From contig NZ_CP013909.1 in assembly GCF_001507645.1 (NCBI RefSeq), positions 682,001-746,000 on the forward strand: a stretch of DNA of 64,000 nucleotides, given 5' to 3'. This DNA comes from Hymenobacter sedentarius. GTDB lineage: Bacteria > Bacteroidota > Bacteroidia > Cytophagales > Hymenobacteraceae. Below the pieces are notes generated by a model. It was not told where the DNA came from, searched no databases, and saw nothing but the letters and a program-made list of their open reading frames with translations. Position 1 is the first letter of the stretch; every line of letters begins with the position of its first letter. Both the position numbers and the translations under genes were made by a program. Shown in pieces: positions 3,980 to 59,892 of the stretch.

Positions 3980-4762
3980 TTACTTCTCAAAATGCCGCAG
4001 GGCCAGTTCATTGCCATCGTACACGCCATAGGAGCAATAATTGACCCATTCACCCAGGTTCACGTAGCGGCTGCCGGGGCCTACGGCAATGTCGAGGGGT
4101 AAGTGCCGGTGGCCGAACACGTAGTAATCGTGGTGCGTGAGGGTTTCGACTTCCCGGCAGTATTGCAGCAGCCACTCTTCTTCCCCAAAATATTTGGCGT
4201 CGGCCTCGCCGTTTTGCAGGCGGCTGTGGCGGCTCCACTTGTTGGCCATGCCGATGCCAAAGTTGGGATGCAGGCGCGCAAAGAGCCATTGCGCCGTGGA
4301 GGACGTAAACACCTGTTTCAGCGCCTTGTAGCTGTAGTCTTTGGGCCCAAGCCCGTCGCCATGGCCAATATGAAAGAGCTGGTTGCCGATGCGCTGCGAC
4401 ACTTCCTGGCGCAGCACCGGAATGCCCATTTCTTGGGTGAAGTAGCCAAACATCCACATGTCGTGGTTGCCGGTGAAGATGGTCACGGGCAAGCCGGCAT
4501 CCGTCAGCTCGGCCAGCTTGCCCTGCAGGCGAATGAAGCCGCGCGGAATGGCGTGCTTGTACTCAAACCAGAAGTCGAAAATGTCGCCCAGTAGGTAGAT
4601 GGCCGCGGCATCCTGGGCTGCCTCGTCCAGCCAGCGCACGATGCGCCGCTCCCGTTCCAGCGACGCCGCAGCATTGGGGGCACCCAGGTGAAAGTCGGAG
4701 GCGAAGTACACCCGGCGGCCGGGCGGTAGCGCCAGGTCGGGTAGCATGCGGGGTGGCTTCAT
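3980..4762 (-). CDS. lpxH: UDP-2,3-diacylglucosamine diphosphatase (LpxH-type)
   Basis: This 260-aa calcineurin-like metallophosphoesterase removes UMP from UDP-2,3-diacylglucosamine to give lipid X in lipid A synthesis, at the cytoplasmic face of the inner membrane. The metal-binding motif series is complete: SDFHLG, GDIFDFWFE, GNHDMWM, HGDG and GHRHLPL. I chose the ATG at 4762 (MKPPRMLPDL) because the longer reading frame from 4831 is the translation of an A+T-rich intergenic repeat. The gene lies between the LUD-domain gene and the propeller gene on the minus strand. LpxH and the related LpxG/YbbF-type enzymes cannot be fully separated by eye. Confidence 0.88.
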   Translation of the reverse strand: MKPPRMLPDLALPPGRRVYFASDFHLGAPNAAASLERERRIVRWLDEAAQDAAAIYLLGDIFDFWFEYKHAIPRGFIRLQGKLAELTDAGLPVTIFTGNHDMWMFGYFTQEMGIPVLRQEVSQRIGNQLFHIGHGDGLGPKDYSYKALKQVFTSSTAQWLFARLHPNFGIGMANKWSRHSRLQNGEADAKYFGEEEWLLQYCREVETLTHHDYYVFGHRHLPLDIAVGPGSRYVNLGEWVNYCSYGVYDGNELALRHFEK

Positions 4763-7709: not shown

Positions 7710-7814
7710 GAAAATAGCTAGTTAAATCAAGTATAACTACGGGAGCAACACCGCGCCGAAAGCAAATGTTCGGTACGGATAAGACGTGCTACCTACGTAT
7801 TTATTTTACCAAGC

Positions 7815-8195
7815 TTAAGCTTCTTCGGCTTCGATATAGCTGATGTTGGCATCGCCCCACAGCTCCTCGAGGGCGTAGAACTTGCGCCGGTCGCGTAGGA
7901 AAACGTGCACCACCACGTCCACGTAGTCGAGCAGTACCCACTCGCGGTTGGTGCGGCCCTCGGTCTGCCAGGGGCTTTCGCCGGTTACTTTTTCGATTTC
8001 TTCTTCTACCGAGCGGGCGACGGCATCTAGCTGCGTGTCCGAATTGGCCGAGCAGATGATGAAATAGTCCGCCACGGCGTTTTTGAGCTCTTTCAGATTC
8101 AGCACCACGATGTCGGACGCTTTCTTGTCTTGCATGCCGCGGATAACCAAATCTGCCAATGTGTCTGAGTCCTGCCGGACCAACGTGCTTTTCAT
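7815..8195 (-). CDS. rsfS: Ribosome silencing factor RsfS (Iojap/YbeB)
   Basis: This 126-aa protein binds ribosomal protein uL14 and blocks subunit joining under nutrient limitation. The family core is clear: IRGMQDKKASDIVVLNL, YFIICSANSDTQLDAVARSV, then GRTNREWVLLDYVDVVVHVF. Length is normal. It is first in the minus-strand run with ftsH and is divergent from birA across a 67-bp gap that must hold both promoters. Confidence 0.95.
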   Translation of the reverse strand: MKSTLVRQDSDTLADLVIRGMQDKKASDIVVLNLKELKNAVADYFIICSANSDTQLDAVARSVEEEIEKVTGESPWQTEGRTNREWVLLDYVDVVVHVFLRDRRKFYALEELWGDANISYIEAEEA

Positions 8196-8262
8196 ATTGT
8201 GTTGTTAGGTTTGAGCTTTACAGCCAAAAGTCTACGAAGTTAACGAAACGCGAAAGAAGGCC

Positions 8263-9021
8263 GTGGTTCTCACCCCTCAAACCTTGTTCACGGGCCAGCA
8301 ATTGATATGGCTGCCGGCTTGTGCCTCCACCAATTCGGAGGCCCAGGCCCTGATTGTCCAAAACCGGGCCAGCGACGGCTGCACCATAATTACGGACTTT
8401 CAGACCGCTGGCCGGGGCCAGCGCGGCAACCAATGGGAGGCCGCCCCCGCCGAAAACCTGATGCTTTCGGTGGTCTGGCAGCCCACGTTTCTGGCCGCCG
8501 CCCAGCAATTCCAGTTGAGCCAGGCCGTGGCCCTGGGCGTGCACGATTGGGCCGCCGCGCTGCTGGGCCCCAGCCCCAAACTGAAGCTGAAATGGCCCAA
8601 CGACCTGTACTATGGTGACCAGAAATTTGGTGGCATTCTGATTGAAAACAGCCTGAGCGGCACAAAGATTCAACACAGCATCGTCGGCATTGGGCTGAAT
8701 GTGAACCAACAAACTTTTGCGGTGCCCACGGCCACGTCCATCGGCCAGCTCACGGGCCGTGCCTACGCCCGCGAGGCCCTGGCGGCGCGCCTGCTCGAGT
8801 GCCTGGAGCGGCGCTACCTGCAGCTGCGCGCCGGGCAGGTGGGCAAGCTGCGGCAGGCCTACCTGCAGGCCCTGTACCGCTACCAGGAGACGCATCCGTT
8901 CGAAGTAGCGGGCCAGACGGTGAGCGGCCAAATTGTCGGGGTGGAGAAAGATGGCCGGCTGGCCGTGGCCATCGGCCACGAGCTACGACGCTTCAGCTTG
9001 CAGGAAATCAGGCACCTATAG
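8263..9021 (+). CDS. birA: Biotin--[acetyl-CoA-carboxylase] ligase
   Basis: This 252-aa biotin protein ligase attaches biotin to the carboxyl carrier protein through biotinyl-AMP. The nucleotide/biotin loop GRGQRGNQW and the catalytic segment KWPNDLYYGDQKFGGILIE are present. There is no N-terminal DNA-binding domain, so it is a group I (non-repressor) enzyme. The start is a GTG at 8263, preceded by a purine-rich GAAAGAAGG; an upstream ATG is absent. It is divergent from rsfS. Confidence 0.93.
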   Translation: MVLTPQTLFTGQQLIWLPACASTNSEAQALIVQNRASDGCTIITDFQTAGRGQRGNQWEAAPAENLMLSVVWQPTFLAAAQQFQLSQAVALGVHDWAAALLGPSPKLKLKWPNDLYYGDQKFGGILIENSLSGTKIQHSIVGIGLNVNQQTFAVPTATSIGQLTGRAYAREALAARLLECLERRYLQLRAGQVGKLRQAYLQALYRYQETHPFEVAGQTVSGQIVGVEKDGRLAVAIGHELRRFSLQEIRHL

Positions 9022-9311
9022 CCCGTTTTCAACTCGAGGAACGGCTCCATTTCCTTGGAAATAATTTGCCGCTTGCTTCGTACATTAGACTTATTAAATA
9101 AAATTTAGGCCTTCGGGCAACCTGCAGCGGGTGGAAGCCGAGTGGTTTTTGAAGCGGGCAAGCAACGTTGGGCCGCTTCGGGCACTCTCTCTATTTGAAA
9201 TGCGGCGCCGCCTTCCGGGCGGAGTCAGCAGCGGGTTCAACCCGGCACGGTGCTTGTTTTTATCAACTCAATCAACGCACTTTATCTGCCAACACTTTTT
9301 CTGCTATTGTC
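9022..9311. other. Intergenic region before the cupredoxin gene
   Basis: This 290-bp stretch, A+T-richer than its neighbours in places (around 9061-9112 and 9257-9311), shows no convincing gene, RNA or terminator. Reading frames through it lack coding character. Confidence 0.6.
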
Positions 9312-9959
9312 ATGAAACTCTTTACTCGTTCGGTGGCGGCGCTGGCCCTCATGGCCCTGACGCTCGTGCCGTCATTGGCAGCCAACATCACCATTCAGGT
9401 GGGCGACAACTTCTACCGCGGGCCGGGCAATACGACTGGCTCCAGTGACATCCGCACCATCAACGTAGGCGACGTGGTGACCTGGACCTACGTGGGCCAG
9501 CTCAGCCACCCCACGGCGTCGGATAACGGCGCCTGGGCCACCTTCCCCATGGACGCCGCCAACAAAACGAAGTCCATCACCTTCACCACGGCCGGCGAAT
9601 TCCCCTACCACTGCACCGTGCACGGTGCGCCGCGGGTGGGCATGTTCGGCGTTCTCACGGTGGTGGCCGCGCCCACGGCCACGCTCAATGCGCACGCGGC
9701 GGGCATCACCGTCAACGTGTACCCCAACCCCAGCCACGGCCAGATAACCGTGCAGCTCAACCAGAAGCCCGGCGCCGACTACAAGCTGCGCCTGAGCAAC
9801 ATCATCGGCCAGGAAATCCGCACCATCGCCCTCAAGCCGGAGCTAACCGCCGCCGGCCTGCCCCTAGACCTGAGCGACCTGCACGCCGGCATGTACTTGT
9901 ACAGCCTGCTGGTAGACGGCAAGGTGGTGACCACCAGGCGCCTCGTCTTGCAGAATTGA
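9312..9959 (+). CDS. Secreted cupredoxin (plastocyanin-like) with type IX sorting domain
   Basis: This 215-aa protein has three parts. A signal peptide (MKLFTRSVAALALMALTLVPSLAA) comes first. A blue-copper domain of about 105 residues has a plausible type-1 copper set: His in GQLSHPTASD, then Cys, His and Met in YHCTVHGAPRVGMFG. A C-terminal Por-type sorting domain begins VNVYPNPSHG and ends RRLVLQN. The last part targets proteins for export and surface anchoring by the type IX system. The role is probably electron transfer at the cell surface or outside, though the partner is unknown. The frame is open further upstream, but the signal peptide fixes the start. The stop codon lies inside a TTGAGCTAAA motif. 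Confidence 0.9.
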   Translation: MKLFTRSVAALALMALTLVPSLAANITIQVGDNFYRGPGNTTGSSDIRTINVGDVVTWTYVGQLSHPTASDNGAWATFPMDAANKTKSITFTTAGEFPYHCTVHGAPRVGMFGVLTVVAAPTATLNAHAAGITVNVYPNPSHGQITVQLNQKPGADYKLRLSNIIGQEIRTIALKPELTAAGLPLDLSDLHAGMYLYSLLVDGKVVTTRRLVLQN

Positions 9960-48180: not shown

Positions 48181-48213
48181 AAGGCCGTTTTCCAGTTGGA
48201 AAACGGCCTTTTA
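48181..48213. terminator. Terminator of the uvrA2-like gene / former tRNA-fMet terminator
   Basis: The perfect 13-bp stem AAGGCCGTTTTCC / GGAAAACGGCCTT has a four-base loop and T-runs in both directions. It is homologous to the terminator at 57766-57798, and its 3' half is within the att repeat. Confidence 0.88.
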
Positions 48214-48229
48214 GGTAGCGGGGACTGGA
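48201..48229. repeat. attL core repeat
   Basis: 29 bp identical to 57787-57815. It contains the tRNA 3'-end segment GGTAGCGGGGACTGGA (read on plus). Just inside lies an inverted pair TTTCTACTC (48242-48250) / GAGTAGAAA (48262-48270), a candidate recombinase or accessory-factor site. Confidence 0.88.
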
Positions 48230-48354
48230 ATACAACCTATATTTCTACTCCGATTGCAAACGAGTAGAAAAGCAACCTAATTATGCTGCAAACGGCTTTT
48301 CGATACTTTACTTGTCGGGCTGAATCGGTGTAAATACGGTTAGAATGTCGCAGT

Positions 48355-48388
48355 GTGTACCCTTGCGTGTACCCTTATCGGGGTACAC
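48355..48388. promoter_or_regulatory. Left-end GTGTACCC arm-type sites
   Basis: GTGTACCCTT occurs at 48355-48364 and 48367-48376 (12-bp period), followed by an inverted GGGTACAC at 48381-48388. The same paired 12-bp arrangement exists at the right end. They lie just upstream of the integrase gene, so they may bind the integrase and regulate its expression. Confidence 0.7.
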
Positions 48389-48424
48389 ACCCTATATTTA
48401 TAGCGGCAACAACAGACACTCGTT

Positions 48425-49702
48425 ATGGCAACCGTTTCCTTTCATTTGAAAGAGCCGGGGGTAGACCGCCCCACGGCCATTTACGCCCTGCTGACTATCG
48501 ACCGGCGGCACCGCATCAAAGTCTACACCGGGCGAAGCATCCACCCCGACAAGTGGGTGAAGGCCGAACAGCGGGCACAAGTGCGGGGCAAAGGCAACGA
48601 GCTAAACGGGCTGCTGAACGACGCGCTGAACGACATGGAAAAGCAGCTGCTTTTAACCCATGCCGAAAGCCTAGCCACCGGCACCTTGCCTACGGCTGCC
48701 GCCCTACGCGAAGCCGCCGCGCCCGAACGCCCCGACGAGCCCGCACCCGTTCCTATGGGCGGGCTGTTCTGGCAACGCTATGAGGAATGGGTAAGCTATA
48801 CCCGCGCCGCTGGCACAGTTCGCACTGCGCAAGCCCACGCTACGGCTGGGCGGCACCTTCGGGAGTTCAGCGAGGCGCAAGGGTATGCCATCGATTTTGA
48901 AACCCTCACGCCTACCGTGGGCGATAGGTGGGCTGCCTACCTGCTGAACGTGGCCGTGCTCACTGACAACACCATAAACAAGCATTTGGGCCGCCTCAAA
49001 TCGTTTATGAAGTGGGCAGCTAAACGAGGCTACACTAACAACGCCGCGCTTACTCAGGTAACGTGGGCGCGGCGTGAGCCGGACGTAATGGCCCTGAGCG
49101 CGGCCGAGCTGGCGGCCCTCGAAGTCTTACCGCTTGCCGTGGGTTCCCGCCTCGAAAAAGCCCGCGCTTGGTTTCTGCTGGCCTGCTACAGCGGCTTGCG
49201 GTACTCCGACCTCGTAAGTATCAAGCCCCAACACTTACGGCCCGCCACGGCCACGCTTCCGGCTCACTTGCGCCTGACCGCGAAGAAAACCCGCGCCGTG
49301 GTGAACGTACCGCTGAGCGCCCGCGCCCTCGAAATCGTAACCCGACTACTGGCCGGCGAGCTTGCCACGGTAAAGAATGGGCCAATCACCAATCCTGTGC
49401 TAAACCGCTTCCTGAAAGAGTTGGGCAAGTTGGCCGGGATTGATTCGCCCATTGAAGTAATCCGATACCGGGGCGGCATTGCCGACGTAACCACGGCCCC
49501 GAAGTACGAGCGCCTGACCGTTCATACCGCCCGCCGCACATTCGTGACTCTGAATTTAGGCAAGGGTATGAGCGCCGAGTTTGTAATGAAGCTGACAGGC
49601 CACACCTCCTACAAGTCCTTTCAGCGTTACGTGAACCTCACGCCCCAACGAGTGGCCGAAGAATTTGCCCGTTTCCACGAAATGCCTGAACGGGGCGAAT
49701 AG
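48425..49702 (+). CDS. Tyrosine recombinase / integrase
   Basis: This 425-aa site-specific recombinase has an N-terminal arm-binding region (VSFHLKEPGVDRPTAIYALL..., typical of Bacteroidota integrases), a SAM-like core-binding domain at about 105-200, and a catalytic domain. The catalytic residues are Arg in SGLRYSDL, His-x-x-Arg in HTARRTF, His in LTGHTSYKSFQ and the nucleophile Tyr in RYVN. It lies at the left end of the element facing inwards and would recombine the att repeats. Confidence 0.95.
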   Translation: MATVSFHLKEPGVDRPTAIYALLTIDRRHRIKVYTGRSIHPDKWVKAEQRAQVRGKGNELNGLLNDALNDMEKQLLLTHAESLATGTLPTAAALREAAAPERPDEPAPVPMGGLFWQRYEEWVSYTRAAGTVRTAQAHATAGRHLREFSEAQGYAIDFETLTPTVGDRWAAYLLNVAVLTDNTINKHLGRLKSFMKWAAKRGYTNNAALTQVTWARREPDVMALSAAELAALEVLPLAVGSRLEKARAWFLLACYSGLRYSDLVSIKPQHLRPATATLPAHLRLTAKKTRAVVNVPLSARALEIVTRLLAGELATVKNGPITNPVLNRFLKELGKLAGIDSPIEVIRYRGGIADVTTAPKYERLTVHTARRTFVTLNLGKGMSAEFVMKLTGHTSYKSFQRYVNLTPQRVAEEFARFHEMPERGE

Positions 49703-49735
49703 ATTGTTATATATAACCTAAAAGCGGACATATTA

Positions 49736-50788
49736 ATGAAAACCGAAGGAATATACTCAGGAGACTATTCAATGGTATCCGAGGCATACATGTATGAACT
49801 TGACCATCGCCTTGGCCGGGCGCTTACCCATTGGGAAGAAATGCAAGAGAAGTACAACGATATGCCTGAGGACGCAAACGCGGTTATTGGGTATGGGAAA
49901 TGGGTAAAACCAGTAAAACGCGGCAATGGGGCTACCCTATTCGATGCTTATGAGGCGCCACTACCTCATTACTATTTATACTATCCATACTTTCTGGAAT
50001 TGATAACCAAATTACCTGATTACAATATCATTCCATCTATTGAATCAACCTTTCATGGGGACGGTGTTGATTTAGATTACATAGAACACCTTATTGAGCG
50101 TTATATCGAAGCGGGCGTCTTGGAGAAAGGAGGACCCATTATTACAGATGATATCAATGCCACACTACGCTTCTACGAAGAGGGTTGTACAGTCGAGCAA
50201 ATAATTGAAAGCGGGATAGATGAAAAGCGCATAATTAACCCAGAATGTGACATAGCTAAGAGATTCGAGATTGTGCGAGGGTGGATTAATAAAATGCGTT
50301 ATAGTCCTACGTATCTACCTGTTATTGTAACCTATGACTCAGCGGTTGCAGGAAACGATAGCACAGAAAGCCTCCCCTCGTTAATATTAAAACAGGAGAA
50401 AAGAACAAAGGATACCACAGTAGCAGAGCTTTGCCGCCCGCCGTTTACAAAAGCCGACCTAAGCAATCTATTGCAACACCTTCGCCTTATCGATTCGTCG
50501 GGTATATGTCTAACAAACAGCCTTGAAGGCAAAGGAGCAGGACTAAGGAGCAAGTTTACGGCTGCTTACCGGGTGCTACACAGGGCACAGCTAATGGAGT
50601 CTACAGCCAACGATGCTGAATGGGCAAGTGCTTTTCGTACCGAATACCATGCAGAAATCGGTGAAACGGCCCAAAAACACGAATTGACCGCCCACGGCAA
50701 AGCTGTTGCCACTTCTTCACTACCTTTCCAAAAAGGAGTAGATGAAGTTAACGCTTGGGTGATTAATTGGCGTGAAAACCAGTCTTAG
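49736..50788 (+). CDS. Hypothetical protein, A+T-rich, element-borne
   Basis: This 350-aa protein is not recognised. It is acidic in its first 200 residues and rich in Tyr (YYLYYPYFLELITKLPDYN). A basic C-terminal half (LILKQEKRTKDTTVAEL, SNLLQHLRLID) could be helical DNA-binding, but that is weak. Codon use and base composition differ from the host genes around the element, so it is probably acquired. It lies 33 bp after the integrase stop in the same direction, so it may share its transcript. Confidence 0.75.
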   Translation: MKTEGIYSGDYSMVSEAYMYELDHRLGRALTHWEEMQEKYNDMPEDANAVIGYGKWVKPVKRGNGATLFDAYEAPLPHYYLYYPYFLELITKLPDYNIIPSIESTFHGDGVDLDYIEHLIERYIEAGVLEKGGPIITDDINATLRFYEEGCTVEQIIESGIDEKRIINPECDIAKRFEIVRGWINKMRYSPTYLPVIVTYDSAVAGNDSTESLPSLILKQEKRTKDTTVAELCRPPFTKADLSNLLQHLRLIDSSGICLTNSLEGKGAGLRSKFTAAYRVLHRAQLMESTANDAEWASAFRTEYHAEIGETAQKHELTAHGKAVATSSLPFQKGVDEVNAWVINWRENQS

Positions 50789-50818
50789 AACGGCTTGTCA
50801 CGCCCTCTATTCCCACTT

Positions 50819-50857
50819 ATTGCCTGCTAATACAAGGCTTTTTCAATAGCAGGCAAT
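50819..50857. repeat. Inverted repeat before the HTH gene
   Basis: The perfect 11-bp arms ATTGCCTGCTA and TAGCAGGCAAT are separated by 17 bases. There is no clear T-run after it. It may be a weak terminator, an operator for the HTH protein, or part of a replication origin for the Rep-like protein. Confidence 0.7.
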
Positions 50858-50912
50858 AGGGATATGTGCTTTGCATCACTCGACCGATACACACCCCGGC
50901 GGGCCATAAAAG

Positions 50913-51260
50913 ATGCAAGCAATCATCCCCATAGGCGTTGATTACGCCCAACTACTTGAAGACGTGCGAGCCATGTTCCGGCACGAATTCAACAACGCCG
51001 CCCCGGCTGCGTCCGCCCACAATACCCCACCCACCGACGAGCTGTTGAGCATCCGCGAGGCAGCCGAAATGCTAGGCGTAACCGTGCAAACTGTGCACGA
51101 ATGGAAGCGGCGCGGGCTGCTTAAGTATCACAAGCTGGGTAGCCGTAGCTACCTGAAACACAGCGACGTGTTGTGCGCTCTGCAAGGGCACCAACGCAGC
51201 GAGAAGCCGGGCAAGGGTGCCACGGCGCGGAAAGGTTCACCACGGCCCACACTAGCCTAA
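50913..51260 (+). CDS. Excisionase-like helix-turn-helix protein
   Basis: This 115-aa protein has a MerR/excisionase-type HTH in its middle: LLSIREAAEMLGVTVQTVHEW then KRRGLLKYHKLGSRSYLKHSDV. In Bacteroidota elements such proteins often act as excisionase or as mobilisation regulator. The Rep-like gene starts 12 bp after it, so the two are probably co-expressed. Confidence 0.85.
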   Translation: MQAIIPIGVDYAQLLEDVRAMFRHEFNNAAPAASAHNTPPTDELLSIREAAEMLGVTVQTVHEWKRRGLLKYHKLGSRSYLKHSDVLCALQGHQRSEKPGKGATARKGSPRPTLA

Positions 51261-51272
51261 TGCGCCCGGCTC

Positions 51273-52190
51273 GTGTACGATTTCATCGCCGCACACCTGA
51301 CCTTGCCCGGCAACGACCCCGGCGCGGAACAACGGCTTGCCCGTTCCCCTGCCTTTGCCGAATCCGACGGGCAACCCGACGAACGGGGCCGAATCAGGGC
51401 GACTCACCGAGGCTTGCGGTTGAAGTACGACCCAGCCGCCGGCTTTTTACAGATTCGCGGCTCCCTGCACACGTTTGCCCACGGCCATAACCTGGGCACC
51501 TTCACCGCAGCCGAAGCGCGGGCCGCTTGTGCCGAGTTGGCGGGCGTGCTCGATGTGCCGCCTGAACGGCCGACGGTGCACCGTTTGGAGGTCGGCCTGA
51601 ACATGCCTGTAGCATTTTCGCCGCGCCAATTCATCGAAAGCCTAGCCAGCCACAAAAACAGGCCGTTTGTGGCCCTGACTCCACCGCCAAAGGCCAGCCG
51701 CCCACTATTGTACGGGGCGCACCACTCAGACTACCGGGTGAAATTTTACGACAAAGGCGCATACAGCCGACTACAAGGTCGCCACCTGCCCGACACAGCC
51801 GCCCCGCACCTACTACGCTACGAGGTTGTTTTTGAGAGGCAGCGGCCCATGCTCACCGTAACCGGCCTGTCTACATTGACCCTTGCCGACCTACCCCGCC
51901 CGCCGGTAATCGCTGCCTTCGCCAACCACCTGCGCACCCATTGGAACCTAACCCAACGCCGACAACACATGAACTACGCCGACCTCTCCCTTTCCGATGC
52001 CGCCCTGCTGCACGCCGCTACAGACGTAGCCTTTTGGGAAATCATGCGAGCCACCCAGCCCCGTAGCACCTACGCCCGCAACAAGGCCAGAGCCACCGCC
52101 CTACTGCGCGAGCGCACCGAGCCGCACCCCTACGATGCCGTTTTTGCCCGCGAGCTGGCAAGCATTACCCAACTGGCCGCCGCTGCCTGA
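51273..52190 (+). CDS. Putative replication initiator (phage gpII/X or Rep_trans-like)
   Basis: This 305-aa protein starts at a GTG. Three segments resemble phage/plasmid rolling-circle initiators of the gpII/X and Rep_trans type: VHRLEVGLNMPV, YRVKFYDKGAYSRL and HLLRYEVVFERQ. The Tyr in the second (YDKG) is a candidate active or structural residue. No HUH motif is seen. If correct, the element can replicate as a circle after excision. The family call rests on motif resemblance only. Confidence 0.6.
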   Translation: MYDFIAAHLTLPGNDPGAEQRLARSPAFAESDGQPDERGRIRATHRGLRLKYDPAAGFLQIRGSLHTFAHGHNLGTFTAAEARAACAELAGVLDVPPERPTVHRLEVGLNMPVAFSPRQFIESLASHKNRPFVALTPPPKASRPLLYGAHHSDYRVKFYDKGAYSRLQGRHLPDTAAPHLLRYEVVFERQRPMLTVTGLSTLTLADLPRPPVIAAFANHLRTHWNLTQRRQHMNYADLSLSDAALLHAATDVAFWEIMRATQPRSTYARNKARATALLRERTEPHPYDAVFARELASITQLAAAA

Positions 52191-52364
52191 CCGCTGCCCA
52201 TATATGGGGGTGTTTTCCTCCCTTGTAATCAATAGGAAACCTGCCCTTACAGGCAGCACCCCGGCTAGGGCAATCCACCCAGCCACCACAACTCCAAACC
52301 ATCATTTCACCCCGCGCCGGCACCCTCAAAATGGGCACCCCGGCCACCTAATGCCCTTGCTAAA

Positions 52365-52859
52365 ATGAATATAATCGAGTTTGAAGGCCGCTATTTCCAC
52401 CAGATAGACGGAGCCAGCCGTTACTACATCAGCAAATGCGGAAAGGTATTCGCCTCCCACCTAAAACGCTTGTTGAAAGCTGCCCCGCAGTCGGAAGGTT
52501 ATCCGCAAGCTGGGTTTAAAATGGACAATGGCACCTATAAGCGCCTGCTCATACACCGCTTGGTAGCATTGCAATTTGTACCAAACCCCGAGCCGGAGAA
52601 AAAGAAGCAGGTTAACCACCGCGACCGCAACAGGAAGAATTGCCAAGTCTGCAATTTGGAGTGGGTTACGGCTTGGGAGAACGACCGCCACGCCAGGACA
52701 ACGGCGCGGCCCCTTACTACCGATGGGAGCCATATCCTGGCTAAACTTAGCGGCTTCTGCGCGCCTCTGCACGACTACCAAGCAAAACCGCGCTTTTACC
52801 GCTTCGAGCCGGTGCCTACTTCCTACCCAGAACCCGACACCGATGCTTCGCGGACCTAA
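52365..52859 (+). CDS. HNH endonuclease (homing type, NUMOD4-like N-terminus)
   Basis: This 164-aa protein has an N-terminal region YYISKCGKVFASHLKRLLK of NUMOD4 type, then an HNH core: IHRLVALQFVPNPEPE, VNHRDRNRKNCQVCNLEWVT. This fits small homing endonucleases of phages and mobile elements. The 3' end overlaps the next gene by 17 bp. A truncated paralogue of its C-terminal half lies at 55129-55368. Confidence 0.88.
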   Translation: MNIIEFEGRYFHQIDGASRYYISKCGKVFASHLKRLLKAAPQSEGYPQAGFKMDNGTYKRLLIHRLVALQFVPNPEPEKKKQVNHRDRNRKNCQVCNLEWVTAWENDRHARTTARPLTTDGSHILAKLSGFCAPLHDYQAKPRFYRFEPVPTSYPEPDTDASRT

Positions 52860-53220
52860 GCTGTATCCTGCTGGCTGGGCGCTCTTTATCGCTGTTTCCG
52901 AGCGTCAGGCCCGCCGCCGGGTCAGCAAGGCCAACGGGCTGCCAAGCGGGGCAGTAATTGTGCTGGTAACAGTGGCCGCGTTACACGAATTAGGCGGAAT
53001 CATCTATCCTGGTCAGCTTTACGCTGCCCGTTTGATGTCTCCCAGCCTGCTACGCAAGTATTTGGTTAGGCTTGTAGCGACAAAGCTGGTAGAACGGTAT
53101 GCCCACCGTGGCCATGCCCGCTTACGCCTTACTCTTGAGGGTTCAGTTGTCAGCTCCCAATACCGACGGTACTTGCTGAGTGGGGCAAGACAATACGACC
53201 GAGAACAGGCAATAGATTAA
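52843..53220 (+). CDS. Winged-helix-like element protein, copy 1
   Basis: This 125-aa protein of unknown function has helices and a basic recognition-like segment (SPSLLRKYLVRLVATKLVERY) then AHRGHARLRLTLEG, resembling MarR/winged-helix topology. It overlaps the HNH gene start-to-stop, suggesting coupled translation and a joint role. A paralogue, about 75-80% identical by eye, is at 55352-55729, and a 66-bp stretch at their starts is identical. Confidence 0.75.
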   Translation: MLRGPKLYPAGWALFIAVSERQARRRVSKANGLPSGAVIVLVTVAALHELGGIIYPGQLYAARLMSPSLLRKYLVRLVATKLVERYAHRGHARLRLTLEGSVVSSQYRRYLLSGARQYDREQAID

Positions 53221-53517
53221 AAAAAACGAGGTTGTGCGGTTGTTTGATTCGACCTACCCCTGTTGTTGGCCAGCCCGGCCCTGATGGGTAAAGCCAAACC
53301 TGTTAATCCGGCGCCCTAACCGCGCAGTACACCGCCCCAACGGTCATGTATCCTCAAATGCCGTGAACAAGACTGCTGGCCGTGGGTGGGTGCAAGCATT
53401 TAAGGACAAAGTGAGGCAAGCGACCACTCACTAGCTATACATGGGCTAAACTTTGTTCATTAACCCGTTGGCACCGAACGGCTGAGCCAACCTTGACCAA
53501 CCCGTAAGCGGCAGAGC
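53221..53517. other. Non-coding stretch in the element
   Basis: This 297-bp stretch after the first winged-helix gene shows no gene, terminator or repeat I can support. A small GAGCTT / AAGCTC hairpin lies at its right edge (53514-53532). Confidence 0.5.
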
Positions 53518-53784
53518 TTAATAAAAAAGCTCGCCATTATGGCCTTCCGACCAGCAGTATAGCTTGCTGAAGCTAGGTAAGGTGCTAGCGTGTGCGAAGC
53601 GGCTGGCCGTGGCATCCTTGGTCAGCTTAAGTACCATTACGTTGCCCGCGTCACCCGCTAGCAGGTTAATTTCCCTCACCACCTTCCATTGTTTACGGAA
53701 TGTCGCCGTGGAGACGCACTGTTCCGGTTTATCTAGGCCAGGATGGCGCAACGTAATAACATCGTCCTGCTCGTATATTTCCAA
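53518..53784 (-). CDS. Hypothetical 88-aa protein
   Basis: A minus-strand frame starts with ATG (MEIYEQDDVITLRHPG) and has reasonable amino-acid composition. There is no recognised domain and no membrane segment. It sits between the winged-helix gene and the acyltransferase cargo gene and may be real or chance. Confidence 0.35.
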   Translation of the reverse strand: MEIYEQDDVITLRHPGLDKPEQCVSTATFRKQWKVVREINLLAGDAGNVMVLKLTKDATASRFAHASTLPSFSKLYCWSEGHNGELFY

Positions 53785-53919
53785 GTCGTAGCTCCACCCC
53801 TGAAGAAACTTCCCGGTGTTGGAACCCCGATAGAGGGCATGAATCCCTTTAAAATCAATAGCTCAAAAGCTACGACGACTACCAGCTGCCCAAGCTGAGG
53901 AACAGAAACCATGGCCATC

Positions 53920-53958
53920 AAAAAAGGCCCGACCGTATTGTCCAACGCTCGGGCCTTG
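53920..53958 (-). terminator. Terminator of the acyltransferase cargo gene
   Basis: The stem AAGGCCCGA / TCGGGCCTT is followed by a T-run on the minus strand, directly after the gene stop. Confidence 0.85.
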
Positions 53959-53961
53959 TTG

Positions 53962-55116
53962 TTACACCGGCGTGTACACCGGCATCTGCACCCGCGCCCG
54001 CCGGGCTTTCAGGCGCAGGTGCAGCGGATGCTCAACGAACCTGTACAGCGCAATGGATGCTGCCGTAACCGCCAGCAGGCGCCCCCCCAGGGTGGTGACG
54101 CCGGCCAAGTCGAGGACGCTCATGAACACCCCCACATGCAGCAGGTAGAATACGTAGGAGGCACGCCCCAGCTCCTGCACCAAGTTCCAAGCCAACGCCC
54201 GCTGCAGCAGGGTGGCTTCGCTCAGCAGGCCGTAGAACAGCACGCACACCACCCCGGCAATGGCCAGCCCCAGCGCGAAGCGCGCCGCCGGCGACTCGCC
54301 CATTTGCGTCCCGGCTGCCAGCACCGCCACAAGGGCCAAGCTGCCCAGCAGTGTGAGCGGCAGGCGGGCCCGGGGTAGCTCAGGGCGGCGGGCCACCCAC
54401 ATTCCCAGTCCGACCCCGGCCATGAATTCGGCCGCGTGCCCAAAGTAGGTGTAATTGACCAGGAACGCCGGCGTTTCCATGAAGCCGTAGTATTTTAACG
54501 AGGCAGGCCAGAAAAGCACCAGCCCCAGCCCCAGCAGGGGCAGCACCGCGGCCCAAAGCAGCAGCGGCTGCCAGCGGCGGCGAACCGACCAGAGCACCAG
54601 CGGCGCGGTCAGGTAAAAGGTTTCTTCCACCGTCAGCGACCAGGCCGTGAGCACCCCGGTGAACATGACGTGCTCAAAATAGGCGCGGGTCAGCGTCAGG
54701 TTCATCCCCATCACCACCAGCTTGTCCAAGGCGGTAAGTGGGTACCACCAGTCCGCCACCACGAACGGCTCGCCCACGAAGTGCCAGAGGGCGAATGTTG
54801 CCACGGTGAGCAGCAGGTAGACCGGGTAGATGCGGGCCAACCGGTTTTGAAGATAGCGGCGCAGCCACGGACCACTCAGCTCCAGGCTATCGCGGTAGCG
54901 GTGGGTGATAAGAAAGCCGCTGAGCACGAAAAATAGCGTCACCCCGGCGTTCCACTGCGTGAGGAACAGGTACAGGTAGTGGCGTAGGCCTTCGCCAGTG
55001 GCCGCATCCCGCAATGGGTTGTAGTGAAAAAAAAAGACCATGGCCGCAGCTACGGCACGGATGCCGGTCAGCGCGGGGTAGGTTGCGGAACGCTGGGAAG
55101 TGGTAGAAGGATGCAC
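53962..55116 (-). CDS. Acyltransferase family 3 membrane protein (OafA-like), element cargo
   Basis: This roughly 384-aa protein has 10 or so membrane segments of the acyltransferase-3 family, which O-acylate surface sugars. The family start YPALTGIRAVAAAMVFFFHY contains the conserved Arg and His, and FFVLSGFLITHRYRD follows. I chose the GTG at 55116 (VHPSTTSQRS). The frame runs on to 55290 but only through antisense of the HNH remnant. A TATCTTTG box lies just before this start. Base composition is host-like, unlike its A+T-richer element neighbours, and it opposes them in direction, so it looks like captured cargo that could alter O-antigen. Confidence 0.85.
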   Translation of the reverse strand: MHPSTTSQRSATYPALTGIRAVAAAMVFFFHYNPLRDAATGEGLRHYLYLFLTQWNAGVTLFFVLSGFLITHRYRDSLELSGPWLRRYLQNRLARIYPVYLLLTVATFALWHFVGEPFVVADWWYPLTALDKLVVMGMNLTLTRAYFEHVMFTGVLTAWSLTVEETFYLTAPLVLWSVRRRWQPLLLWAAVLPLLGLGLVLFWPASLKYYGFMETPAFLVNYTYFGHAAEFMAGVGLGMWVARRPELPRARLPLTLLGSLALVAVLAAGTQMGESPAARFALGLAIAGVVCVLFYGLLSEATLLQRALAWNLVQELGRASYVFYLLHVGVFMSVLDLAGVTTLGGRLLAVTAASIALYRFVEHPLHLRLKARRARVQMPVYTPV

Positions 55117-55128
55117 GCTCAAAGATAA

Positions 55129-55368
55129 TTGACGACAATAGAGAAGAATTGTCACGTCTGTAATTTGGAATGGGTAACGGCGAAGGAGAACGACACCCAC
55201 GCGAGGGAAACAGGCCTGCCCCCCGGCACTCCGAACGCTGCGAAACTGCCAATTATTCGCGGGCCCTGTGCGCTTATAAAGGACTACCAAGCAAAACCGC
55301 GCTTTTACCGCTTCGACTCGGCGCCTATTAACTACTCAAAATCTGACACCGATGCTTCGCGGACCTAA
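55129..55368 (+). pseudogene. Truncated HNH endonuclease fragment
   Basis: About 78 codons match the C-terminal half of the HNH protein at 52365-52859 (KNCHVCNLEWVTA, DYQAKPRFYRF, SDTDASRT), but the N-terminal half with the first HNH residues is missing. The only start is a TTG. The acyltransferase gene begins 13 bp away on the other strand, so the cargo insertion or a deletion probably removed the front. Confidence 0.85.
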
Positions 55369-55729
55369 GCTGTATCCTGCTGGCTGGGCGCTCTTTATCG
55401 CTGTTTCCGAACGCCAGACCCGCCGACGTATAAGTGAGGCTTACAAGCTACCGAGTGGGGCCGTAATTGTGTTGGTTACGGTGGCCGCGTTGCATGAATT
55501 GGGCGGAATTATCTACCCGCGCCAGCTTTACGCAGCCCGCTTGATGTCACCAAGCCTACTACGCAAGTATTTGGCAGAGCTGGTAAAGGCACGATTGGTG
55601 GAGCGTTACGCTCACCGGGGCCACGCCCGCTTACGCCTGACCTTATCTGGGGTAGGTGCCGTTGCACAATATCAGCGGCAGCTGTTGGGTGGGGCCAGAC
55701 AGTACGAGCGCAAACAGTTAATTGAGTAG
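55352..55729 (+). CDS. Winged-helix-like element protein, copy 2
   Basis: This 125-aa paralogue of the protein at 52843-53220 has the same start MLRGPKLYPAGWALFIAVSE and the conserved MSPSLLRKYLAELVKARLVE. It is intact although the HNH gene in front of it is truncated, so it may be selected independently. It overlaps the HNH fragment by 17 bp, as in copy 1. Function is unknown; DNA binding is likely from topology. Confidence 0.75.
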   Translation: MLRGPKLYPAGWALFIAVSERQTRRRISEAYKLPSGAVIVLVTVAALHELGGIIYPRQLYAARLMSPSLLRKYLAELVKARLVERYAHRGHARLRLTLSGVGAVAQYQRQLLGGARQYERKQLIE

Positions 55730-55983
55730 GCCGACGCAATGGGGTATGGGTTTACTCCCTTGCTATCTCTTATCCGAGCGCATTGGACGGTATGGACGAG
55801 AAGGCAATTGTTTACGTCTACTCTGTAAATTTATTTTTACCAGTAAAACAACACAATGCAACATACATATAACGAACACGCACGCGCACGCTTCTATATG
55901 TACTATCAATACAGTGAAACTTGCATTATAGGCATGTAGGTTTGTAGGACTTTAATACAAGCATTGAACAAGGGGTACGGCTA

Positions 55984-56015
55984 TTGCGTTTCTAGGCTGA
56001 AATAGCCTAGATTTG
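55984..56015 (+). promoter_or_regulatory. Promoter and palindromic operator of the HicBA-like pair
   Basis: A perfect palindrome TCTAGGCT-GAAAT-AGCCTAGA (55991-56011) overlaps a Bacteroidota -7 box TAGATTTG (56008-56015). A TTG at 55984-55986 gives a 21-bp spacer. The layout suggests self-repression by the HicB-like protein encoded 25 bp downstream. Confidence 0.75.
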
Positions 56016-56040
56016 TTTCGTCCCTAACCCTCAAATTCCC

Positions 56041-56316
56041 ATGTCAGCCCAAGTCCTCAAGCTAACCGGTGTAGTTGAGCCAACAGATATGCCTAATGTA
56101 TTTATTGGATACATTAAGGAAATCAGTGGCATTATCACGCAAGGCGGCTCTAGAGAAGAAGTATATGCAGACCTAGAAGAAATTACGGGATATATGCTAG
56201 AATACAAGCGTGAGGAAGCGTTAGCTTTATTAGCAGAGCAAACTCACAAGCCCGCACCTTCTGTTAAGCGTATGGCCGAAGTGCCTTACGAAATTGCCCA
56301 TGCTGCTCTAGCCTAA
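56041..56316 (+). CDS. HicB-family antitoxin-like protein
   Basis: This 91-aa protein has the HicB partial-RNase-H-like start (LTGVVEPTDMPNVFIGYIKEI, then GIITQGGSREEVYADLEEIT). It is acidic, as antitoxins usually are. No C-terminal DNA-binding domain is evident, so operator binding would rely on another element or multimerisation. It is followed by the HicA-like gene after 3 bp, the reverse of the common hicA-hicB order. Confidence 0.7.
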   Translation: MSAQVLKLTGVVEPTDMPNVFIGYIKEISGIITQGGSREEVYADLEEITGYMLEYKREEALALLAEQTHKPAPSVKRMAEVPYEIAHAALA

Positions 56317-56319
56317 CTA

Positions 56320-56562
56320 ATGAAGCTAGATAGATTTTTGGCATACCTGGATTATCGCGACTGTTTTCCGGAGCAAACTCATCAGACTTTTTCGATATTT
56401 AGAAGTCGAGAAACCGGCCAGACTGTTTCTGTTATAACTAAATCACCGGAGATTCACGCTAATAATGTTGTGCAAGCTTGTAGAGCGTTAGGCATTCCCT
56501 CACCCGATGTTGATAATATAAAAGAGGTAGAGCGCAGACTTGCCATAATCTGGCCCCAATAG
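56320..56562 (+). CDS. Divergent HicA-like toxin candidate
   Basis: This 80-aa protein shares topology with HicA mRNA interferases: an N-terminal helix (KLDRFLAYLDYRDC), a His at EQTHQTFSIFR where HicA has its catalytic GSHH, a strand ETGQTVSVITKSPEIHA, then a helix NNVVQACRALGIPSP. Sequence identity to canonical HicA is low, so the call is inferred mainly from the linked HicB-like gene and size. A terminator follows. Confidence 0.55.
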   Translation: MKLDRFLAYLDYRDCFPEQTHQTFSIFRSRETGQTVSVITKSPEIHANNVVQACRALGIPSPDVDNIKEVERRLAIIWPQ

Positions 56563-56567
56563 TTAGG

Positions 56568-56594
56568 AACCCCGTTAATAGCGGGTTTTTTATT
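56568..56594 (+). terminator. Terminator of the HicBA-like operon
   Basis: The short stem CCCG / CGGG extended by AA/TT is followed by TTTTTT, immediately after the toxin-like gene stop. Confidence 0.75.
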
Positions 56595-56625
56595 ATATAT
56601 ACCCAAGCGAGGAAAATTGCACTGA

Positions 56626-56838
56626 GGGTACGCAGATTGCCCTACCATCACTGCTGAGAGAGGCCACGCCAAGTGGGAAAGTGAATCTCTTAAAGTGGGT
56701 ACCCATCCTGCGAAGGCCACAGCCACTACTAGTCAATTTGTACATTACATGATACCCCAATACAATGCTGCTGGGGAATCAGAAGCTGCCTGCAACCCGG
56801 CCGTAGCCGTTGCCCACTTCATAAAGGCCGCCTGGTAA
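56626..56838 (+). pseudogene. Orphan frame without a start, followed by a terminator
   Basis: Seventy codons open after a TGA, with coding-like composition (AERGHAKWESESL..., NAAGESEAACNPAVAVAHF), end at TAA 56836-56838 and are followed by a strong terminator. The only ATG is late (56752) and a GTG is at 56695. It could be a gene fragment whose 5' part is lost, or a small gene with an unusual start. Confidence 0.4.
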
Positions 56839-56856
56839 ATTACTTCACTGCGAATC

Positions 56857-56884
56857 GCCCCGGCTCACCAGCCGGGGTTTTTCT
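56857..56884 (+). terminator. Terminator after the orphan frame
   Basis: The stem CCCCGGCT / AGCCGGGG has a four-base loop and is followed by TTTTT. Confidence 0.85.
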
Positions 56885-56954
56885 ATGCACTTATCCGTAA
56901 TGTATTAATATACTTATATATTAGTAACGAGGTTATATCCGCCTTACCAAACTC

Positions 56955-57422
56955 ATGAATAGAATAATAGGAAACAGTCTGAAAGCGTTAGGGCTATGTA
57001 TTGGCTTAGCGTCTTGTGGACACAGCACTGCCTCAACGCCAGTTGGAAAGAAGCTCAAAGACCCTAACGCTGGCAAACACCGGTTAGCCCAACATGACCC
57101 AAGAGGTTGGCAGACGTACCCGATAATTGTCCTAATTGCTACCAAGCATGGCATTGGGATTGACACGGCTGGGCAGTTAGTCCGAAACTTTGAAGGGCGT
57201 TTTACTGGCTACGGCCATAACACATTTCAATCAGGAGTGGAGGCTATGCTACCCACGCCCTACAATGGTTATGAGGAAAACACCTCATCTATGAATGATG
57301 ACTCAGCTTTTTTTAAAACGCAAGGCAAGCAGTTCGGTTTGTCTCCTGCTTTGGTTGCTAGCATCATAGCTGACTTCTATCTGATAGGAGGAAGCAATCG
57401 CACCTACCCTGAACCTTCGTAA
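56955..57422 (+). CDS. Hypothetical lipoprotein
   Basis: This 155-aa protein has the lipobox LGLASC (Cys21). The rest is soluble with no recognised domain. The upstream DNA is very A+T-rich (TTATATATTAG), a likely promoter. It is followed after 2 bp by a small membrane-protein gene, so they form a unit at the right end of the element. No function can be assigned; such pairs sometimes encode accessory or exclusion functions. Confidence 0.7.
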   Translation: MNRIIGNSLKALGLCIGLASCGHSTASTPVGKKLKDPNAGKHRLAQHDPRGWQTYPIIVLIATKHGIGIDTAGQLVRNFEGRFTGYGHNTFQSGVEAMLPTPYNGYEENTSSMNDDSAFFKTQGKQFGLSPALVASIIADFYLIGGSNRTYPEPS

Positions 57423-57424
57423 TA

Positions 57425-57649
57425 ATGAGTAATTTGTTGAAGCGCGCCTTAATTGCGTTGGGCATTTTGTGGAGTTGTACCCTATTATTTATGATGCGTC
57501 AGCTTAGCCAAAATGGCCGCTATCAAACCGCTTACGGGGGGATAATATTGGATACAAGAACGGGAGCAACCTACAGGATTAACGGGGGTGTAAATTCACC
57601 TATGCCGTCAGATGAGTTAAGCGCACCTATACCCTCAGGAGATGAATAA
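57425..57649 (+). CDS. Hypothetical small membrane protein
   Basis: This 74-aa protein has one N-terminal membrane segment (LIALGILWSCTLLFMM) followed by a short polar tail. It is tightly linked to the lipoprotein gene before it. No family is recognised. Confidence 0.6.
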   Translation: MSNLLKRALIALGILWSCTLLFMMRQLSQNGRYQTAYGGIILDTRTGATYRINGGVNSPMPSDELSAPIPSGDE

Positions 57650-57735
57650 AACCCCGATGCGCCATACAACAGGGCTTTACGCATATGATTGAGACGCTTG
57701 GAAAAGCCGGCTATCTCAATTTAAAAGATTAGGCC

Positions 57736-57757
57736 GTGTACCCCTACGTGTACCCTT
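57736..57757. promoter_or_regulatory. Right-end GTGTACCC arm-type sites
   Basis: GTGTACCCCT (57736-57745) and GTGTACCCTT (57748-57757) lie 12 bp apart in the same orientation as the pair at the left end and 30 bp inside attR. Confidence 0.7.
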
Positions 57758-57765
57758 GATAAAAG

Positions 57766-57798
57766 AAAAGGCCGTTCCCATATTGGAAACGGCCTTTT
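57766..57798 (-). terminator. Terminator of tRNA-fMet carried by the element
   Basis: The stem AAGGCCGTT / AACGGCCTT is followed on the minus strand by TTTTCTTTTA. It is homologous but not identical to the hairpin at 48181-48213, with changes that preserve pairing. Confidence 0.8.
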
Positions 57799-57799
57799 A

Positions 57800-57874
<75 letters not shown>

Positions 57875-58794: not shown

Positions 58795-59892
58795 CTAAAC
58801 GTGCTTCGCCAGGGGCCGCGGAGCCGAAACGTACCGGAATCGGTTTTTGAAGCGGTCGATGGGAGCTTCTACGAAATGCCAGGATGCCGCGCTGAGCAGG
58901 AGCACCGCTGGCCCGAGTACGCACAGGAGGAGCCAGGGCGCCATGAGCGTGGCCCGCCCCGCGGCGTCGGGCACGAAGTGGTATACCAGCCGCTGCCAAA
59001 ACACCAGCAGCGGCAAGTGGCAGAGGTAAATGCCGTAGCTGCGCTGGCCCACCCACTGCGTAGCCGCATGGCCCAAGCCCAGGCGACGGCCGGCCGCGGG
59101 CACGCACAGCAGCCAGCCAATCGTGAGAAAGTCGGCAATCGCCAACCAGGTGCCTTGGCCCAAGGCCCAGAACTGAGCTCCGGGCCCCGAGGGGTGCCAC
59201 CGGTTCAAAGCAGCCCAACCCAGCCACGCCAGCAGCACATACCGCCCCCGGGCCAGCCGCGCTAGCCAGGGCTGGTACTGCGCCAGTTGGAGCACGGCGC
59301 CCAGCCCAAACAAATCCAGATTGGCGGGCAGCAGCATGTGCACCATGTTTGGGCTCACCCACAACGACCACAGCACCCGGAACCCCCAGCCCACGGCAAC
59401 CATCGCCAGCAGCAGCTTTAGCCGACGGCCCAAGACGCCCAGCAGCCAGGGCCACAGCAGGTAAAACTGGATTTCGACGGCAATGGTCCAGAAGTGGCCC
59501 ACGCCGTCGCCCCAGCCCCCAAAGCGGTACACCAAAAAATTGGCCCCCGGCAGCACGTACCAGCTAGGGTACTCGCGCACCATGGCCAGCGGCAGCACCG
59601 CACAGCCGGCCAACACCAGGTAGTAAGACGGCAGGATGCGCAGTGCCCGCCGCAGGTAGAAGGTGCCCACCCGGTGCCACCAGGGCCCGGGCGCTCCCGC
59701 GTAGGCTTTGTATTTCCAGATAATGCCCGACACCAGGTAGCCGCTGAGCACAAAGAACAAGCTCGGGCCCAGCTCGCCCAGCGGAAACGGCGGCTCTAGC
59801 CAATGCTGCACCAGCACAATGCCCACGGCCACGGCCCGCAGGCCGTTGAGTTCGGGGTGGTACGGGAGGGCGGTAGGTGGCGGAGCAGGCAT
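58795..59892 (-). CDS. Acyltransferase family 3 membrane protein
   Basis: This 365-aa protein has about 10 membrane segments of the OafA/YrhL type. The conserved start is YHPELNGLRAVAVGIVLVQHW, followed by LFFVLSGYLVSGIIW and the C-terminal SYGIYLCHLPLLVF. It probably O-acylates a surface polysaccharide. It is unrelated in detail to the element-borne acyltransferase at 54-55 kb but is of the same family, and is the chromosomal counterpart just outside the element. Confidence 0.9.
   Translation of the reverse strand: MPAPPPTALPYHPELNGLRAVAVGIVLVQHWLEPPFPLGELGPSLFFVLSGYLVSGIIWKYKAYAGAPGPWWHRVGTFYLRRALRILPSYYLVLAGCAVLPLAMVREYPSWYVLPGANFLVYRFGGWGDGVGHFWTIAVEIQFYLLWPWLLGVLGRRLKLLLAMVAVGWGFRVLWSLWVSPNMVHMLLPANLDLFGLGAVLQLAQYQPWLARLARGRYVLLAWLGWAALNRWHPSGPGAQFWALGQGTWLAIADFLTIGWLLCVPAAGRRLGLGHAATQWVGQRSYGIYLCHLPLLVFWQRLVYHFVPDAAGRATLMAPWLLLCVLGPAVLLLSAASWHFVEAPIDRFKNRFRYVSAPRPLAKHV

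Follow-up and report, generated by a model that had tools for sequence, protein, structure and literature searches.

A tRNA-Integrated Element of Hymenobacter sedentarius with a Predicted Rolling-Circle Initiator and a Candidate Origin Hairpin

Introduction

How might a small chromosomal island with no recognised conjugation or phage genes be maintained and stay mobile? The question is raised by a 9.6-kb block in the chromosome (a single contig of 4.87 Mb) of Hymenobacter sedentarius, a member of the Cytophagales. The block lies in a stretch of 64,000 nucleotides (NZ_CP013909.1, positions 682,001 to 746,000), referred to below as the window. An original prediction, made from the sequence alone, described it as a mobile element that could be either a satellite or an autonomously replicating integrative element. 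As set out below, the block is integrated at the initiator tRNA-Met (tRNA-fMet) gene, and it probably excises as a circle that would replicate by the rolling-circle mechanism from a hairpin after REP, the gene of its predicted initiator.

Boundaries and Insertion Site

The 9.6-kb block is a genuine insertion into the initiator tRNA-Met gene at its 3′ end. It is bounded by an exact 29-bp attachment (att) repeat (48201–48229 and 57787–57815), the longest exact repeat between both ends, and the single intact tRNA-Met, found on the minus strand by both ARAGORN and Rfam, has its 3′ end within the proximal copy. When read by eye, the anticodon stem of this tRNA contains three G:C pairs and position 1:72 is unpaired, which together we take to be the marks of an initiator tRNA. 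A tyrosine integrase gene (INT, PF00589) is located next to the distal repeat and faces the interior of the element. Thus, the repeat, the extent of about 9.6 kb, the intact tRNA 3′ end, and the inward-facing integrase, all noticed in the original prediction, are borne out.

The insertion has also survived a comparison with relatives lacking the element at this tRNA, which had been set beforehand as the test able to refute it. In one empty site (genome G089, locus L055), uvrA, a single terminator, and the tRNA form an unbroken series, with UvrA and the neighbouring hydrolase each 98% identical at the protein level; in the other (G115, locus L064; UvrA 89% identical), uvrA stands directly next to the tRNA, likewise with one terminator. 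The window has a terminator at each end; therefore, judging from the end alignment, the element appears to have arrived with a tRNA 3′ end and a terminator of its own. Moreover, in Hymenobacter siberiensis PAMC 29290 (G071, locus L031) this tRNA is occupied as well: a sister element of 7.0 kb lies there, flanked by uvrA and an acyltransferase gene.

REP, the Predicted Initiator

The original prediction of a Rep-like protein is corroborated by structure modelling, by which REP is a predicted rolling-circle initiator of a Rep_trans-like fold. The sequence of REP has no match in Pfam (E ≤ 1), PHROGs, or the PDB, and the few named REP records are labelled only “hypothetical” or “uncharacterized”. 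A search of NCBIfam with 13 REP relatives gave one chance match (E 0.086), and no sequence link from REP to solved structures was found with a single sequence, a profile giving matches at chance level. The AlphaFold model (pLDDT 90) has a TBP-like catalytic fold, and its best structural matches are Rep_trans rolling-circle initiators, including the plasmid protein RepDE, with 12–13% identity to REP in the structural alignment. TBP-fold proteins rank under the Rep_trans chains in the same search and are uninformative on function. A Rep_trans protein is expected to have three acidic metal ligands, a catalytic tyrosine in a YxK motif, and an RxE motif; the residues D3, E106, Y159-x-K161, and R182-x-E184 of REP align with this set by motif, order, and spacing.

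REP genes were found in 30 of the 120 Hymenobacter genomes searched (a quarter) and, by profile, in 36 of the 291 genomes sampled from the order Cytophagales, spread over 16 of 115 genera. Of the 35 REP genes of the genus, 33 were inspected with their surroundings (32 fetched loci plus the window). A REP homologue (35% over 68% of REP) is also encoded by pHsw3, a natural circular plasmid of 6,969 bp from Hymenobacter swuensis DY53.

A Conserved Hairpin Downstream of REP

The spacer 3′ of REP bears the pattern TTTCC(T/A)..TTGTAATCA..(A/T)GGAAA, whose outer parts pair into a stem, and sequence comparison suggests that this hairpin is likely the nick site of a rolling-circle origin, a candidate in the window at 52207–52247. 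A first alignment of 15 instances, chosen by the loop motif, has two-sided changes in six of nine pairs, and its covariation score (0.187) is higher than that of all 500 shuffles and slid versions (maximum 0.132). An alignment of 23 instances, which was fitted to the structure, has two-sided changes in five of seven pairs. The loop is better conserved than the stem, and no T-run follows the hairpin.

A model of the hairpin, R1, was searched over 40 sources (742,756 bases). At E ≤ 0.05, it has matches in 25 of the 33 REP loci, located 3′ of REP and on the REP strand. Fifteen of these loci had served for training, L039 is an exact repeat of a training sequence, and nine are new (L032, L034, L040, L042, L044, L045, L047, L049, and L112). 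The remaining matches at this threshold are att-site terminator hairpins (in the window, L031, and L043) and one site in pHsw3, which falls within the C-terminal extension of its REP gene. In six fMet elements devoid of REP, the best R1 match reaches 15.7 bits (E 0.47). Within the H. sedentarius genome, the hairpin copy scores 46.6 bits and the runner-up, the tRNA terminator, 18.4 bits.

A second model, R2, applied at E ≤ 0.01 to the 120 genomes of the genus, has 25 matches in 23 genomes, all 3′ of REP on the REP strand, at distances of 20–1,448 nt from the REP match (within 149 nt in 23 cases), and zero matches in the 90 genomes that lack REP. The Fisher p for the co-occurrence of REP and the hairpin is 8e-19, but 23 of the 25 matches are training sequences and the related genomes are non-independent. 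The model result speaks for specificity, not for sensitivity. No match to the strict hairpin pattern was found in viral contigs.

Sister Elements and Module Exchange

In 15 of the 33 REP loci, the window included, a direct repeat connects the far border with a tRNA gene, giving spans of 6.2–13.1 kb; four of these repeats are merely 15–16 bp long, and 18 loci are not delimited. The targets are the genes of tRNA-fMet, a second tRNA-Met(CAT), tRNA-Gly-CCC, tRNA-Arg-CCG, tRNA-Arg-TCT, and tRNA-Val. In a further 20 loci from other genera of the order, an integrase is encoded upstream of REP and on the same strand in 17 cases (that of L166 being recognised solely via a sister integrase), and a gene of the excisionase XIS can be recognised in eight. 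REP genes therefore stand beside different integrases and different tRNA targets, as well as on a plasmid. The six fMet elements without REP have integrases 77–86% identical to the INT of the window. Since REP is found beside different integrases and related integrases are found without REP, the integrase and replicon modules appear to be swapped.

These six elements (L119–L124) carry primase-helicase-type modules in place of REP. Their 48 scanned open reading frames (ORFs) gave matches to DUF3987 (4), BT4734-like_N (4), DUF6371 (2), Mob_Pre (1), and Terminase_4 (1), along with one baseplate-hub match. The presence of a Mob_Pre relaxase match and a terminase small-subunit match suggests that one site hosts seemingly different lifestyles.

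The H. siberiensis element shares with the window element 90% DNA identity in INT, 81% in XIS, 87% in REP, and 85% in the spacer after REP, with synonymous divergence (dS) of 0.43, 0.55, and 0.33 for the three genes, respectively. HNH, WH1, WH2, ORF155, and ORF74 are distant (dS 1.0–2.6); dN/dS is 0.05–0.25 over the eight genes compared. The stretches of the acyltransferase and of the gene pair formerly labelled HicBA have no DNA match in this sister element. By its gene arrangement, the window element looks like a mosaic, in which an intact HNH–WH1 pair is followed by the acyltransferase region and then by a truncated HNH and WH2. WH1, WH2, and the L031 copy are mutually 80–82% alike; therefore, recombination between related elements seems to fit better than a fresh duplication.

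No DNA nearly identical to the element was found in plasmid and phage records. Among viral contigs, a search with A4 gave a single distant REP locus, L132, an IMG/VR contig of 4,972 bp, where an XIS-like helix-turn-helix (HTH) gene is followed by a distant REP relative of 25% identity (3447–4635); none was obtained with A3. In another family of the order (G238), L167 contains on the minus strand (7045–9564) an ORF of 839 aa that combines a REP-type domain (YDK motif) with a full tyrosine integrase (PF00589 and PF13102), a possible initiator–recombinase fusion. A gene family with proteins starting MPR(P/Y/R)..TTD was seen six times, in five cases on REP elements or plasmids and once on an element without REP.

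Gene Content of the Element

The features are collected in Table 1.

Table 1. Features of the window element and its borders, with one gene family from other loci (window coordinates unless a locus is named).
Feature	Position	Strand	Evidence and remarks
Distal att copy, 29-bp core	48201..48229		Adjoins uvrA; chromosomal terminator 48182-48210; exact repeat, continuity in empty sites
INT, tyrosine integrase, 425 aa	48425..49702	+	PF00589 E 1.3e-13, PF13102, phrog_1
ORF2, 350 aa, between INT and XIS	49736..50788	+	No Pfam, PHROGs, or NCBIfam family
XIS, excisionase-family HTH protein, 115 aa	50913..51260	+	TIGR01764; phrog_66 E 2.3e-9
REP, predicted Rep_trans-fold rolling-circle initiator, 305 aa	51273..52190	+	GTG start; predicted nucleophile Tyr159
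Conserved hairpin, candidate origin nick site	52207..52247	+	Arms 52214-52219 / 52234-52239; TTGTAATCA at 52223-52231; covariation, model hits
HNH endonuclease, homing type, 164 aa	52365..52859	+	PF13392 E 4.2e-10, phrog_59, PADLOC HEase
WH1, winged-helix protein, 124 aa	52846..53220	+	PF12802 E 9.5e-4, under its curated cut-off
Acyltransferase cargo, Acyltransferase_3	53962..55116	-	PF01757 E 6.5e-28, obtained with a slightly extended reading; start codon uncertain
Truncated HNH remnant, 79 aa	55129..55368	+	61% match to residues 91-164 of the first HNH
WH2	55352..55729	+	81% identical to WH1
Two small genes, 91 and 80 aa	56041..56562	+	No HicA/HicB match; earlier label HicBA-like, unsupported
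Two small genes, 155 and 74 aa	56955..57649	+	L031 counterparts 63% and 72% identical; signal-like N-termini by eye
Proximal att copy, 29-bp core	57787..57815		With the element's own terminator 57766-57798; exact repeat, end alignment
tRNA-Met (initiator), intact target gene	57800..57874	-	ARAGORN, Rfam
MPR(P/Y/R)..TTD genes	L034 12779; L041 14654; L111 2680; L114 4889; L116 15191; L122 7465

The slot between INT and XIS is occupied by a gene in sister elements too. At this position, the C-terminal part of about 115 aa is kept, while the N-terminal part is exchanged between relatives. The AlphaFold2 model of ORF2, from an alignment of six sequences, has a pLDDT of 42 and was set aside, and a likeness to the RteC regulator was dropped. 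XIS scores 32.3 bits with the excisionase model TIGR01764, above the curated cut-off of 28.8 bits, which upholds the excisionase-like HTH of the original prediction; its weak HTH-level matches to models of terminase small subunits (phrog_57, E 2e-4; PF06056, E 0.012; NF040601, E 0.04) are well below those to excisionases.

The cargo of the window element consists of the acyltransferase and small genes. Another acyltransferase-like gene, chromosomal and also on the minus strand (58795–59892), lies just outside the element and is only distantly similar to the acyltransferase within it. Of the duplicated HNH–winged-helix genes suggested earlier, the second HNH has turned out to be a 5′-truncated remnant. 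The HicBA-like module has been abandoned, as searches of Pfam (E ≤ 1), NCBIfam (E ≤ 5), and PDB sequences (E ≤ 10) matched the pair of 91 and 80 aa to neither HicA nor HicB. PADLOC, run on ten window proteins (INT, XIS, and WH2 not among them), returned homing-endonuclease matches and one weak JAB match (E 0.047), and a defence role for the window genes was rejected on this result.

The cargo of 14 sister elements and pHsw3 was scanned in 76 of the 86 ORFs listed with 100 aa or more. At E ≤ 1e-4, 25 Pfam families were recorded, among them MmeI-type IIG methylase (2), N6_N4 methylase (2), ResIII (2), D12 methylase (1), HNH_3 (7), Fic (1), Rep3_C (1), and DDE transposase (1); PADLOC likewise points to restriction systems of types IIG and III (25 of 65 families shown). 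No relaxase, type IV secretion system (T4SS), terminase, portal, or capsid family was found in these 76 ORFs.

The window proteins scanned against Pfam, PHROGs, and NCBIfam likewise contain no T4SS family, which an integrative and conjugative element would itself encode, and Pfam and PHROGs give no canonical relaxase family, a function in which REP could serve. No packaging or capsid-interference gene typical of phage-inducible chromosomal islands (PICI) was recognised, the HTH-level matches of XIS being the sole trace, and no capsid, portal, Zot, or coat gene of a prophage or inovirus was seen among the ORFs of 60 aa and longer. The absence of conjugation, capsid, and portal genes noted in the original prediction thus holds, apart from these XIS matches. 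INT, XIS, the att repeats, and the empty sites, for their part, give the element the integration/excision module of its own that characterises an integrative and mobilizable element (IME).

Proposed Life Cycle and Alternative Explanations

We consider it probable that the element lives as an integrating rolling-circle replicon. INT and XIS would excise it as a circle; Tyr159 of REP would nick the hairpin loop and thereby prime leading-strand synthesis; rolling-circle copying would maintain the circle, which could then reinsert at the fMet tRNA. The HNH, winged-helix, acyltransferase, and small genes would be cargo or accessories, lying in the slot where the sisters keep restriction-modification and other genes. 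Transfer from cell to cell would most likely depend on a helper conjugative element, with REP doubling as a putative relaxase. Of the two possibilities in the original prediction, autonomous replication is favoured by the fold and motifs of REP, the hairpin, and the REP homologue on pHsw3; the satellite has lost ground, as no capsid, portal, or terminase family was found in the window beyond the weak XIS matches, in the 76 sister ORFs, or in the phage records.

Several points weigh against this view. REP has no match to the PF02486 sequence model at E ≤ 1 and, because it fails this model, is not filed as a member of the family; its catalytic residues were matched by alignment, order, and spacing, and motif II was not identified. 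The window hairpin is no more stable than shuffled sequences (z −1.0; 30 of 200 as stable), while three other folded hairpins are more stable than theirs (z −2.5, −5.5, and −4.0). The share of training sequences among the R2 matches given above also belongs here. In eight of the 33 genus loci, R1 has no match 3′ of REP: in pHsw3, where the match lies within the gene, and in L043, L113, L117, L125, L126, L127, and L128. In the 20 loci from other genera, the best E-values of R1 and R2 are 0.038 and 0.042, none of the matches at E ≤ 1 being 3′ of REP. Divergence of the origin could account for the loci without the hairpin; alternatively, the hairpin could be confined to one clade. Finally, the H. 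sedentarius genome has no match to the PF02534 coupling protein or to CTnDOT TraJ.

This last result also counts against a strict IME, in which REP would chiefly serve as relaxase, with the hairpin as the origin of transfer, and a resident conjugative element would export the strand. Such an explanation overlaps with the integrating replicon and differs in the purpose of REP; we regard it as possible, though clearly less probable. It agrees with the gene arrangement in streptococcal IMEs, where the putative relaxases are initiators of the rolling-circle replication (RCR) type (PMC5357655, PMC5704250), and mobilization via a Rep-Trans relaxase is reported in the title of PMC7563843. However, TraJ is not enriched with REP (present in 2 of the 30 genomes with REP and in 12 of the 90 without, p 0.51), and the REP homologue on pHsw3, a plasmid typed as non-mobilizable, needs no transfer role. 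It is rather doubtful that the hairpin serves as a terminator or an mRNA element or is bound by XIS or some other protein, with REP acting elsewhere or as a regulator. The weak folding of the window hairpin, the weak scores of tRNA terminators with the same model, and the REP loci devoid of a hairpin would suit this explanation; the loop being more conserved than the stem, the missing T-run, and the constant position of the hairpin relative to REP, whichever integrase is present, argue against it.

A PICI-like phage satellite packaged by a helper phage seems unlikely: the size, the tRNA site, and the int–xis–rep order are satellite-like, and one Terminase_4 and one baseplate-hub match occur in the REP-less elements with related integrases at the same tRNA, but the negative scan of the 14 REP elements and pHsw3 and the lack of a match in phage records, with one distant locus in viral contigs, do not accord with it. 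Least probable of all, and by a long way improbable, is a remnant of a filamentous (inovirus) prophage that has kept a G2P-type replication gene. Inoviridae G2P is indeed the best viral structural match of REP (E 1.8e-8), but the match to the plasmid RepDE is as clear, no inovirus structural family was found in the elements scanned, and the integrase upstream of REP in 17 of the 20 loci elsewhere in the order is not in its favour.

In a broader sense, these loci could represent an undescribed class of tRNA-integrating rolling-circle elements of Cytophagales, for and against which we find the arguments evenly balanced. Its order would be int, a variable slot gene, xis, a Rep_trans-fold initiator, an origin hairpin with the TTGTAATCA loop, and cargo. 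The initiator, invisible to current sequence models, would be both replicase and relaxase, and the replicon module would be swapped between integrases and free plasmids, ferrying restriction-modification and other cargo. If the integrating-replicon reading is true, Bacteroidota possess an integrative replicon of the rolling-circle type whose initiator and origin are both defined and which would be of use for vectors. It would also offer a concrete means of remaining mobile to small tRNA islands that lack conjugation and phage genes. The hairpin makes the origin function directly testable.

Comparison with Known Systems

Searches of the open-licence PMC literature found no paper describing elements of this kind from Hymenobacter, Cytophagales, or Bacteroidota. 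Among small integrative elements of Bacteroidota, the Bacteroides IMEs NBU1, NBU2, and Tn4555 have a tyrosine integrase, as here, but use MobP relaxases and are moved by MPF-B helpers (PMC5704250); none of these was recognised in the element. The plasmid pHsw3 shares the REP homologue and a hairpin matching in the stem, and differs in being a free circle with no annotated integrase, with the hairpin inside the REP gene and a different loop, and with a cargo of Dam methylase and HNH.

With the pT181-family Rep_trans replicons (RepDE; PMC4797284), the element has in common the predicted fold, the order and spacing of catalytic residues, and a hairpin as the presumed nick site; unlike them, it is integrated at a tRNA gene, with the hairpin 3′ of the initiator gene, and the initiators share only the low identity given above. 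A hairpin just downstream of the rep gene is required by Rep-Arvir, a distant Rep_trans-fold initiator of the integrating archaeal provirus SNJ2 (PMC13107129). SNJ2 thus resembles the element as an integrating replicon with a Rep_trans-like fold and an essential hairpin downstream of rep, and differs in being an archaeal virus with different sequences and with a winged-HTH domain fused to its Rep.

By layout, the closest systems are the streptococcal IMEs with Rep_trans/MobT or other RCR-type initiators (PMC5357655, PMC5704250). These IMEs and the element both comprise a compact set of integrase, excisionase, and RCR-type initiator, a single specific site, and no T4SS genes. The element considered here is distinguished from them by its Bacteroidota host, an initiator missed by PF02486, no coupling-protein gene found, and a dedicated, conserved hairpin 3′ of REP. 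The earlier statement that the element does not fit standard descriptions was therefore too strong, as its combination of integrase, excisionase, and RCR-type initiator is that of the streptococcal IMEs.

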